Positions 2,707 to 13,828 of a stretch of DNA of 39,067 nt are shown piece by piece (position 1 is the stretch's first letter; every line of letters begins with the position of its first letter). The stretch covers positions 1 through 39,067 of the IMG/VR virus record IMGVR_UViG_3300045741_000093; one strand, 5' to 3'. This DNA comes from a virus. Made by a program: the position numbers and the translations under genes. The notes under the pieces were generated by a model that did not search any database, was not told the origin of the DNA, and saw nothing but the letters and a program-made list of their open reading frames with translations.

Positions 2707-2797
2707 CGGTGCAGGTCCGCATTGCGGCTTCATCGTCCGCAGCGATCCACCAGAGGACCGCGCCAAGCGCGAAGGTCACAGTGATCCAGTGCATCAT
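2681..2797 (-). CDS. Small single-pass membrane protein, 38 aa
   Basis: A 38-residue reading frame from the ATG at 2797 to the TAA at 2683-2681. Its ATG overlaps the stop of the beta-helix gene (ATGA), and a strong Shine-Dalgarno GGAGGA lies just upstream. The N-terminal half (WITVTFALGAVLWWIAA) is hydrophobic enough to span the membrane once, followed by a short acidic and polar tail. No family is recognised. Position in the early operon suggests a host-takeover or superinfection role, but nothing in the sequence proves it. Overlap with a promoter at its 3' end is unusual but common in compact phage genomes. Confidence 0.6.
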   Translation of the reverse strand: MMHWITVTFALGAVLWWIAADDEAAMRTCTVDTGQVNA

Positions 2798-3387
2798 TTT
2801 TCCTCCGGAATACGTCCTGTGTTTTTGGCAATGCTAATAAGTACATAGCCATACTCTTTCCAGAAGCGCGTGGATCGCACGCCGTCCATGGCTGCTACGC
2901 GGCGGTCATTAAATGTTTGCCATTCGGTCAGCAGGTGCGTTTCGCATCCGCACTGCATATGCTTGTCTGTGAGAGTCACAACATAGATGAGGCCGGATAT
3001 GGTGATGGGCGTTTTGGTAGCCCGCGCGTCACCAGAGACCTGCGCGTCACCAGAGACCTGCGCGTTGTCATAGACCTGCGCGTTGCCAGAGACCCGCGCG
3101 TTGCCAGAGACCCGCGCGTTGCCATAGACCCACGCGTCACCAGAGACCCGCGCGTTGCCATAGACCCACGCGTCACCAGAGACCCGCGCGTTGTCATAGA
3201 CCCACGCGTTGTCAGAGACCCACGCGTTGCCGCAAATCGACAGATTGTTTTCGTTCTCAATCCACCCGCCGACTGTGCCGGCGGCTAAATCTCCTATCGC
3301 CACGAGTGCCCTGATGCGCTTTAGGGTCACGCCGCCGAGCATAGTGTGTGTTTCCCCGGTGAACTCGTATTTTTTGTTGTTAGACAT
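2794..3387 (-). CDS. Short-period repeat protein, predicted left-handed beta-helix
   Basis: A 197-residue early protein. Residues from about 50 to 125 are a run of six-residue repeats of the form (N/D)A-x-V-(S/Y)-(G/D), for example GDAWVYGNARVSGDAWVYG, which is the pattern of left-handed beta-helix or hexapeptide proteins. Similar repeat proteins occur in many phages, mostly with unknown function. The N-terminal 45 residues contain a small domain (TLKRIRALVAIGD) and the C-terminal 70 residues are non-repetitive, with a CGCETH segment. The ATG at 3387 has the Shine-Dalgarno AAGGAG 9 bases upstream. The gene lies directly behind hammerhead ribozyme 1, whose cleavage would leave a leader of about 61 bases. 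Confidence 0.8.
   Translation of the reverse strand: MSNNKKYEFTGETHTMLGGVTLKRIRALVAIGDLAAGTVGGWIENENNLSICGNAWVSDNAWVYDNARVSGDAWVYGNARVSGDAWVYGNARVSGNARVSGNAQVYDNAQVSGDAQVSGDARATKTPITISGLIYVVTLTDKHMQCGCETHLLTEWQTFNDRRVAAMDGVRSTRFWKEYGYVLISIAKNTGRIPEEK
3023..3238. repeat. 18-bp tandem repeat inside the beta-helix gene
   Basis: Eleven clear copies and one degenerate copy of an 18-bp unit, plus-strand form CGCGCGTTGCCAGAGACC with variants at the TTGCC/TCACC/TTGTC and CAGAG/CATAG positions. Because 18 is a multiple of three, copies can be gained or lost without frameshift, and the other frames also stay open across the array. Confidence 0.95.
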
Positions 3388-3412
3388 GCCGCTTTCTCCT
3401 TGTTACGCCCCG

Positions 3413-3475
3413 TGCTCATCAGCTGCGGTTTGGGGCACTATGCCGCAGGACGCGGGATAGGCCCCGCGTTTCGCA
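3413..3475 (-). ncRNA. Type II hammerhead ribozyme 1
   Basis: Read on the minus strand: UGC (3475-3473), GAAA (3472-3469), stem III CGCGGG/CCCGCG (3468-3463 with 3456-3451, loop GCCUAU), U (3450), C (3449), stem I CUGCGG/CCGCAG (3448-3443 with 3428-3423), CUGAUGA (3422-3416) and GCA (3415-3413). Every core position of the hammerhead consensus is present, including the G10.1-C11.1 closing pair of stem II and a GUC cleavage triplet. Predicted cleavage is between 3449 and 3448, about 61 bases before the ATG at 3387. Stem II is only 3 bp locally, but an outer helix between ACGCCC (3514-3509) and GGGCGU (3410-3405) could close it. The order of elements makes it type II (open at stem II). Confidence 0.85.
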
Positions 3476-3480
3476 ATCAG

Positions 3481-3531
3481 TAAATCAGGTAGTCCAGCGT
3501 CTTTAACTGGGCGTTTCAGTCCCCTGATCTA
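3481..3531 (-). other. Structured spacer hairpin between gene stop and ribozyme 1
   Basis: Minus-strand UAGAUCAGG (3531-3523) can pair with CCUGAUUUA (3489-3481), 9 pairs including one G-U. Inside is a smaller CCAG/CUGG helix and a second GAAAC. It begins with the stop codon of the 3532-3810 gene. It lacks a U tract, so it is not an obvious terminator, and lacks CUGANGA, so it is not itself a ribozyme. Confidence 0.5.
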
Positions 3532-3810
3532 CTACTGAGGCCAGTTAAGTCGTTCAGCTATTTTTGCCAAGCGTGGGTCATAGCAGTCTCCCCCGTATCT
3601 GAACTGGGCGTCAGCTGTACTCTCGTGCTTTTCAAGAAGCGCGATGCCTAGCGCATTAACCGCTACACACCACTCTTCTTGACCGATAGCCATGTACAGA
3701 AAAGGCATTTCGTCCTCCGGGTCATAGCACTCAGCGGCTATTTCCCTTACGTACTCTTTCACTAAAAAGGCGGTTTTACCCGCCTCTGTTACAGCAGAGC
3801 GTTTAATCAT
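3532..3810 (-). CDS. Hypothetical early protein, 92 aa
   Basis: A small acidic protein from the ATG at 3810, with GAGG 6 bases upstream as ribosome binding site. The sequence is rich in acidic residues and cysteines (ECYDPEDEM near residue 27, GGDCYDPRL near 74). The CYDP segment occurs twice about 48 residues apart, hinting at an internal duplication or a shared binding motif. No family is recognised. It is flanked by two hammerhead ribozymes: ribozyme 2 ends 21 bases upstream of its start and ribozyme 1 lies downstream. Its message would therefore be released as a single-gene RNA. Early phage proteins of this size often modulate host enzymes, which is inference only. Confidence 0.7.
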   Translation of the reverse strand: MIKRSAVTEAGKTAFLVKEYVREIAAECYDPEDEMPFLYMAIGQEEWCVAVNALGIALLEKHESTADAQFRYGGDCYDPRLAKIAERLNWPQ

Positions 3811-3830
3811 GTTGAACCTCGTGTTGTGCG

Positions 3831-3897
3831 ACCCGCCATCTTCAGGGGTGAGCCGGTCAATGCTCGCCCGACGCCCCGGCGGGGCGTTTCGGCAAGT
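3831..3897 (-). ncRNA. Type II hammerhead ribozyme 2
   Basis: Minus strand: stem II 5' arm ACUUGCC (3897-3891), GAAA (3890-3887), stem III CGCCCC/GGGGCG (3886-3881 with 3877-3872, loop GCC), U (3871), C (3870), stem I GGGCGAGC/GCUCACCC (3869-3862 with 3853-3846, one mismatch), CUGAAGA (3845-3839), U (3838), stem II 3' arm GGCGGGU (3837-3831). Stem II has 7 pairs including two G-U. The single unpaired U between CUGAAGA and stem II departs from the canonical core, where stem II follows directly. Predicted cleavage after the GUC at 3870 leaves a 59-base leader before the ATG at 3810. Confidence 0.75.
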
Positions 3898-3927: not shown

Positions 3928-4284
3928 TCACTCTTGCTCTATCAGGTTGAAAATGACTTCTTCTCCGTGCATCAATGCCCGCATCTCATCGAAAGTCGCG
4001 TAATCAGCGAGATACCAGTTTTTTCCCTCTGCTGTAGCTTCGCCGTCATCATCATAGTGCATGCTTTCAGCAATACACGGGGCGCCAGTCAGTGCGAGCG
4101 GGTTCGTCATCCGCGTTTCGCTATCAAAATAGCTGTATGAGCCGTTCGATGAATGACTTTCCAGAAGGTCACACCATATCATGTTATAGGGTTCGCTTTT
4201 AATGTAGTTTTCGATTAATTCAACTCCGTTATCCGTTGCCTTTACGGATAGATTGCCGTTTGCAAGTTCTGTAATCATTAACAT
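3928..4284 (-). CDS. Hypothetical early protein, 118 aa
   Basis: A 118-residue acidic protein without a recognised domain. Aromatic and acidic residues dominate the second half (YLADYATFDEMRALMHGEE). It begins with two nearby in-frame ATGs; the one at 4284 follows GGAG with a 10-base gap, and the one at 4278 is an alternative. The gene sits between hammerhead ribozyme 3, whose cut at 4338/4337 leaves a leader of 53 bases, and ribozyme 2. Codon use is less G+C-biased than in the structural genes, as in the neighbouring early genes, which may mean recent acquisition. No function is claimed. Confidence 0.72.
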   Translation of the reverse strand: MLMITELANGNLSVKATDNGVELIENYIKSEPYNMIWCDLLESHSSNGSYSYFDSETRMTNPLALTGAPCIAESMHYDDDGEATAEGKNWYLADYATFDEMRALMHGEEVIFNLIEQE

Positions 4285-4304
4285 GATCTTTACTCCAAGG
4301 GCCT

Positions 4305-4360
4305 GCCATCGTCAGGCGAGCGGGGCCATTCGCTCGCGACCCGCTTTAGCGGGTTTCAGC
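4305..4360 (-). ncRNA. Type II hammerhead ribozyme 3, overlapping a stop codon
   Basis: Minus strand: GCU (4360-4358), GAAA (4357-4354), stem III CCCGC/GCGGG (4353-4349 with 4344-4340, loop UAAA), U (4339), C (4338), stem I GCGAGCG/CGCUCGC (4337-4331 with 4322-4316, 7 perfect pairs, 8-base loop), CUGACGA (4315-4309), U (4308), GGC (4307-4305). Stem II is short (G-U, G-C, C-G) and preceded by the same extra U as in ribozyme 2. The GAAACCCGC segment also encodes the last three codons (Glu-Thr-Arg) of the upstream gene, and the loop holds its TAA stop. Predicted cleavage follows the GUC at 4338. Confidence 0.78.
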
Positions 4361-4621
4361 TCGTGCTTGTTCTACTATCTTCAGCGCTTGCGCCGTTGTG
4401 GAGGCTTCTATATATACACAAAACGCGCCGCCACGAGTATAAACGGCCACGACACGCCCGTGCCCCCAATAGACACCACCGCGATCATAATAGCCGTCAC
4501 CTCCGCAGTGTTTGGTGTATAATTTCCCGTTAACAGGAATATCGTTTATATCGTCTCCAGCGCGCCCCATCGGCGCGCCACGTTCTGTTTTTACTCTGAC
4601 GAATGGATTAAATCTTGACAT
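4346..4621 (-). CDS. Hypothetical early protein, 91 aa
   Basis: A 91-residue basic protein, rich in glycine, tyrosine and arginine (CGGDGYYDRGGVYWGHGR near the middle), with a helical C-terminus. No family is recognised. The start is placed at the ATG at 4621, because the longer open frame begins inside the -35 box of the promoter at 4656-4684 and would precede the transcription start. A weak GGGG lies upstream as ribosome binding site. Its final codons and stop double as part of hammerhead ribozyme 3, so cleavage would cut its message just 8 bases after the stop codon. It is the first cistron of the ribozyme-punctuated group. Confidence 0.7.
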   Translation of the reverse strand: MSRFNPFVRVKTERGAPMGRAGDDINDIPVNGKLYTKHCGGDGYYDRGGVYWGHGRVVAVYTRGGAFCVYIEASTTAQALKIVEQARAETR

Positions 4622-4645
4622 TGTGAACCCCGCGTTCGTTGTTTC

Positions 4646-4684
4646 GATAAATTTATATCTAGCTGTGTTATATCTGTTTGTCAA
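4646..4684 (-). promoter_or_regulatory. Leftward promoter with dyad
   Basis: TTGACA (4684-4679), a 17-base spacer and TAGATA (4661-4656) on the minus strand, with an expected start near 4649 and a leader of about 28 bases to the ATG at 4621. A dyad GATA-N6-TATC (4646-4659) overlaps the -10. Its centre is shifted about 4 bases downstream relative to the other four leftward promoters. The flanking stretch is markedly AT-rich. Confidence 0.65.
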
Positions 4685-13717: not shown

Positions 13718-13761
13718 TATATACGACATGCCCTCCAAGGGCGTTTCCTCCTTGAAACTAA

Positions 13762-13793
13762 CGGGCCAGGTTCAAACCTCGGCCCGCTTTTTC
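13762..13793 (+). terminator. Intrinsic terminator between scaffold and capsid genes
   Basis: A hairpin with an outer CGGGCC/GGCCCG stem and an inner AGGTT/AACCT stem, joined by one bulged C, followed by CTTTTTC. It would reduce readthrough from upstream genes and lies just before a new promoter, so capsid synthesis is set separately. Confidence 0.85.
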
Positions 13794-13799
13794 ATTTAG

Positions 13800-13828
13800 T
13801 TGACAACTTGCGAACGCAGTATTACAAC
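13800..13828 (+). promoter_or_regulatory. Promoter for the major capsid gene
   Basis: TTGACA (13800-13805), 17-base spacer, TACAAC (13823-13828). It follows the terminator directly and drives the capsid gene through a leader of about 127 bases. No dyad of the leftward operator type is present. Confidence 0.65.

Follow-up and report, generated by a model that had tools for sequence, protein, structure and literature searches.

A candidate type II hammerhead ribozyme, R3, lies at the junction of two viral genes, ORFs A and B, and the stop codon of ORF A falls in the loop of its stem III. The reading that we favour, with slightly better than even confidence, is that R3 separates the messages of the two genes at this operon junction and that a ribosome terminating on ORF A delays its cleavage rather than blocking it. 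In similar viral DNA a stop just before the ribozyme is usual, and the stop in the loop of R3 is a rare but recurring exception. Hammerheads between phage genes and their cleavage are already known; a rule for stop codons around them was not found in the open-licence literature searched.

The window, the whole stretch of DNA analysed here, comprises 39,067 bases and is a complete virus record from IMG/VR. ORFs A, B, C and D follow one another on the minus strand, with one candidate type II hammerhead in each gap (R3, R2 and R1; Table 1). The nearest terminases among the phage records searched are those of Rhizobium phages (56-57% identity). A suhB/mmgR small RNA is found at 13723-13800 on the plus strand (RF00519, 47.5 bits), and this RNA and the terminase hint at a rhizobial host. 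No relatives of ORF A or ORF B were found in viral_contigs or in phages, and the DNA of the gene block matched phages solely beneath the repeat region of ORF D. The beta-solenoid of ORF D is encoded by near-perfect short DNA repeats (3020-3240, minus strand), and similar repeats occur in Streptococcus and other phages. No sigma-70-like promoter was found on the minus strand between 2700 and 5500.

Table 1. Features of the gene block that contains R3, with positions in the window
Feature	Positions	Strand	Remarks
ORF A	4346..4618	-	90 codons with ATG as start; final residues R-A-E-T-R
TAA stop of ORF A	4346..4348	-	three of the four bases of the UAAA loop of R3 stem III
R3, candidate type II hammerhead	4297..4361	-	RF02276 33.4 bits (cut-off 37) and own descriptor
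R3 stem II 5' arm, GCU	4358..4360	-	serves as Ala codon in ORF A; paired to GGC (4307-4305), G-U beside core
R3 stem I hairpin	4316..4337	-	7 bp, loop AAUGGCCC
R3 core CUGACGA	4309..4315	-	followed by inserted U at 4308 (after A9)
GGAG, Shine-Dalgarno-like	4293..4296	-	directly behind R3, 8 nt 5' of ORF B ATG
ORF B	3928..4284	-	118 aa; next gene 3' of R3; no relative found
R2, candidate type II hammerhead	3827..3894	-	junction of ORFs B and C; RF02276 24.7 bits
ORF C	3532..3810	-	92 aa; no relative found in phages
R1, candidate type II hammerhead	3408..3476	-	junction of ORFs C and D; RF02276 27.7 bits
ORF D	2794..3387	-	197 aa; YdcK-like beta-solenoid protein; PF18836 2.6e-18

The core of R3 is that of a type II hammerhead, with CUGACGA (C3-U-G-A-N-G-A9), GAA (G12-A-A14), the pair A4354-U4339 (A15.1-U16.1) and C4338 (H17). 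Stems I and III are closed by loops and stem II is open, as in RF02276 and in the hammerheads reported by Perreault et al. in 2011 (PMC3088659), which also lie between phage genes with several in a gene block. Stem III has 6 bp, ACCCGC (4354-4349) with GCGGGU (4344-4339), and its loop is UAAA (4348-4345). C17 is nucleotide 4338 and the predicted cut is between 4338 and 4337. R3 differs from the type II hammerhead in its score below the cut-off, the U inserted after A9, a U at position 11.1 and the upstream stop in the stem III loop. It has the highest RF02276 score of the three, all of which are under the curated 37. Since its 33.4 bits is less than this gathering cut-off, R3 is treated as a candidate type II hammerhead and not as a member of RF02276. 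Rfam at default settings reported none of R3, R2 and R1 in the window, and an Rfam search of 3,201 bases with E values up to 1 listed R1 and R2 with R3 absent. A strict type II descriptor run on the window found R3 and R1 and missed R2, which has a mismatch in stem I. When the window was dinucleotide-shuffled 100 times, the same descriptor gave 1 match in total, so chance is an unlikely source of the R3 ribozyme shape. A strong hairpin between the ORF C stop and R1 (3475-3536, minus strand, -19.0 kcal/mol) has GAAAC followed by a CCAG/CUGG stem and is perhaps a decayed hammerhead.

The last codons of ORF A, GAA ACC CGC TAA, are part of R3. The Glu codon GAA is G12-A13-A14 of the core (4357-4355), and the Thr and Arg codons ACC CGC make up the whole 5' arm of stem III. 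The initial annotation had described this overlap of core and stem III arm with a coding end, and a TAA stop in the stem III loop; both are borne out, on the minus strand, which it had omitted. Eight nucleotides (AGCGGGUC) separate the TAA from the predicted cut, which is 3' of it. As a real gene, ORF A is weakly supported by its sequence. Its codon usage is the best of the six frames yet negative (-0.095 versus -0.194 to -0.521), a search against Pfam and PHROG gave no match at E 0.1, and an alternative TTG start would extend it to 4346-4684. At position -6 relative to G12, where many hammerheads have a stop, R3 has CGA. This suggests that an earlier stop of ORF A has been lost and that the TAA in the loop has taken over.

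To survey the position of upstream stops, viral contigs and bacterial and archaeal genomes were scanned with patterns for type II hammerheads, and the matches were passed through a structural descriptor. The set holds at least 320 non-redundant hammerheads in 208 loci and is not a random sample. The survey criteria gave 0 matches in three passes over base-shuffled loci, and among the accepted hammerheads at least L255 4472 is likely to be a false positive. Contigs L017, L103, L139 and L027 carry 7 to 9 or more hammerheads each, on a single strand per locus. Twenty-two of the 320 were too close to a contig end and were left out. For 260 of the remaining 298, an ORF of at least 60 aa on the same strand ends nearby, and 38 have none; the longest such ORF was taken as the upstream one, which biases the counts towards ORFs that run on.

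Among the matches listed, the upstream stop lies at least 5 nt before G12 in 238 of 260 hammerheads, inside stem III in 7 and past the cut in 15. The stops form a sharp peak, with 181 of 260 at -11 to -5 and 59 at -6 alone, among the matches listed. On the opposite strand such an ORF exists for 145 of the 298 hammerheads, and among the matches listed its ends have no comparable peak. None of the 15 ORFs that end past the cut is judged convincing. In ten, a competing ORF has its end 5-9 nt before G12. That leaves five, in L055, L103, L122, L213 and L336, of which the longest, in L055, has a TTG start and an implausible GC content by codon position (0.53, 0.88, 0.77). Upstream frames thus seem to end ahead of the cut, much as they do in many group I introns. 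In bacterial group I introns, in-frame stops near the 5' splice site exclude ribosomes, according to passages of PMC3073962 and PMC3984707; hammerheads differ in that the stop belongs to the end of the gene itself, either ahead of the ribozyme or within it.

The stops inside stem III are those of R3 in the window, L081 5163, L139 5152, L139 1998, L331 2248, L390 13607 and L357 10140. Six of these seven (the window, L081, L139 twice, L331 and L390) share one frame, with the ending E-T-x-stop. R3 has R-A-E-T-R, L081 has K-A-E-T-P, both L139 cases have K-A-E-T-A-R, L331 2248 has K-T-E-T-A-R and L390 13607 has E-T-E-T-R-G. The ORF at L357 10140 is in another frame with a GTG start and is doubtful. 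A seventh E-T-x-stop case, L331 2782, belongs to an ORF of 49 codons, under the 60-aa limit. Each of two ORFs in L331 starts just behind a hammerhead and terminates in the stem III loop of the following one, and one of the two ORFs has a weak match to YodL. The stop-in-loop hammerheads of L081 and L139 (both) score above the Rfam cut-off. A scan for stem III of the L139/L331 type returned 2 contigs, both already in the set; the exact stem III loop of R3 was found nowhere else, and a search for annotated phages similar to L139 or L081 gave none of use.

Could these positions reflect nothing but the crowding of phage genes, with stops abutting or entering whatever lies downstream and no selection related to ribosomes? 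We consider this very unlikely. The upstream stop often touches stem II, as tight packing predicts, and no stop is possible in GAAAC or in stem II, so that stem III is the next place where a frame lacking the stop at -5 can end. Against this, read-in ORFs stop in stem III beyond expectation: 7 of 22 do so, versus 14 of 223 other hammerheads with an in-frame stop in stem III (Fisher p = 9e-4), a post hoc comparison in which one genome supplies two of the 7 cases and L357 is doubtful. A hand-picked version of the test (7 of 10, p = 1.7e-6) was discarded. The 14 of 223, with the upstream stop 5-30 nt before G12, were also considered as in-frame backup stops; this idea was rejected, there being no clear excess.

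Annotated Streptomyces phages also argue against packing. Our own descriptor found 37 hammerheads in Hank144 (L550; the same phage as L103), R4 (L551), Marav (L552) and Amethyst (L553), all on the coding strand and in one gene block per phage (9, 9, 12 and 7, respectively). An annotated CDS ends inside 0 of the 37, whereas 45 of the 70 other gene junctions in these phages overlap; the four phages are related, so the result covers about one lineage. Eight of the 37 hammerheads are wholly within an annotated CDS, which is taken as over-annotation, and three annotated starts lie inside hammerheads. These spanning CDSs and internal starts, if real, would break the rule that the stop comes before the cut.

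In the favoured reading, R3 would cut between A and B while the polycistronic RNA is being made. The A product would keep its own stop and have the stem III hairpin at its 3' end, and the B product would begin with a 5'-OH and carry the stem I hairpin and a ribosome-binding site. As frames are closed before the cut, each product would hold a whole cistron. The frame of ORF A would run four codons into R3 before the TAA in the stem III loop closes it, and a terminating ribosome would cover the core and the cut for the duration of termination. If the leading edge of a ribosome is placed some 12 nt 3' of the first A-site nucleotide, a ribosome that terminates at the TAA would lie over the core, open stem III and extend roughly to the scissile phosphate. 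The anatomy of R3, its position, the reading frame and the recurrence elsewhere are seen in the sequences; that the block is transcribed, that R3 cleaves, that ribosomes affect it and that a stop was lost earlier are inferred.

The initial annotation had proposed that a ribosome finishing the upstream gene covers the core and that translation could thereby delay the cleavage of the message being translated, or block it. The geometry holds; as a special property of R3 the core cover does not, since the stop lies 5-12 nt before G12 in 187 of 260 hammerheads among the matches listed, and a stop that abuts stem II places the terminating ribosome over part of the core. What sets R3 apart, by position, is that the cut itself would be covered. 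The claim that translation blocks or delays cleavage is probably overstated as it stands. Judging from the arrangement, a delay of R3 cleavage is likely and blocking is possible. With the ribosome over the cut during termination, translation of A would delay cleavage of uncut transcripts and would not normally prevent it. The ORF A stop is 5' of the cut, so the upstream cistron would be whole after cleavage, and ribosomes that arrive after the cut would be irrelevant.

A stronger version, that heavy translation of A unfolds R3, keeps the A-B message and couples B to it, and that poor translation leads to the cut, seems to us quite improbable. It would draw on the position of the ribosome over the cut, on the same stop-in-loop arrangement in four other contigs, and on the T4 td group I intron, for which PMC3073962 reports in part of its text a splicing defect from ribosome occupancy. 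There the end of the I-TevI ORF encodes the ribozyme core ("core creep"), as the end of ORF A does in R3, and ribosome occupancy interferes with the ribozyme; td, however, is self-splicing with the ORF inside the intron, and R3 is predicted to be self-cleaving. The stop comes before the core in 238 of 260 hammerheads among the matches listed and also at R2 and R1 (40 nt 5' of G12 for ORF B and 62 nt for ORF C), so that such a switch would be peculiar to R3, and both cistrons stay intact on cleavage. Equally improbable in our view is a broader proposal, in which phage stops are fences at hammerheads and, in the minority with the stop in the stem III loop, termination times the cut and so determines whether both cistrons stay on one message.

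A different concern is whether R3 is a sound ribozyme. Its stem II is only GGC/GCU, with the inserted U and a core-side G-U pair at 10.1-11.1, which is usually G-C. Among the matches listed, position 11.1 is C in 296 of 298 hammerheads and U in two, R3 and an AT-rich match that is probably false, and R3 is the only credible hammerhead with U11.1 among them. Weakness or decay is thus a serious rival, and R3 may be weak or decaying. That it is a decaying hammerhead, with stem II weakened by U11.1 and the inserted U and with ORF A simply reading in, we regard as unlikely. The sub-cut-off score is in keeping with decay, and the pseudoknot between loop I and the 3' tail, common but not universal in type II hammerheads, is not above chance in R3 (4 bp possible; 4 bp or more in 85% of shuffled tails). 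At -28.8 kcal/mol, versus -24.1 for the pseudoknot-free hammerhead state, the minimum free energy fold retains stems I and III and loses the open stem II, and the folding z is only -1.44. Against decay, the core, stem I and stem III of R3 are intact and it scores above R2 and R1. Perreault et al. disqualified matches with a stem II mismatch beside the core unless activity had been measured, and a U10.1-U11.1 mismatch is reported there as tolerated (PMC3088659, in part of the text). A U inserted after A9 is frequent, in 186 of 320 hammerheads among the matches listed, although two of the search patterns demanded it. The inserted U was also considered as the mark of a new ribozyme class, an idea that was dropped because RF02276 scores such hammerheads above the cut-off (L081 5100-5167, 56.1 bits).

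Perreault et al. reported that hammerheads occur in clusters flanking phage genes, that these cleave in vitro and that one set also does so in E. coli. They proposed that the hammerheads cut RNA into separate cistrons, and called the functions of phage hammerheads unclear (PMC3088659, in part of the text). The words "stop codon", "ribosome" and "translation" do not occur in its main text. Within the open-licence literature, the scope of our search, this paper was the sole match for type II hammerheads and phage, and no description came up of stops set against a hammerhead or inside one. A paper on the inhibition of phages by aminoglycosides (PMC9239200) recalls, in a passage of its text, that aminoglycosides bind a hammerhead ribozyme, and phages with hammerhead arrays are a possible test case for this effect. 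The rule that frames close before the cut, in a minority inside the ribozyme, would tie translation to self-cleavage in a concrete way, and it can be tested in the cultured Streptomyces phages R4, Hank144, Marav and Amethyst.
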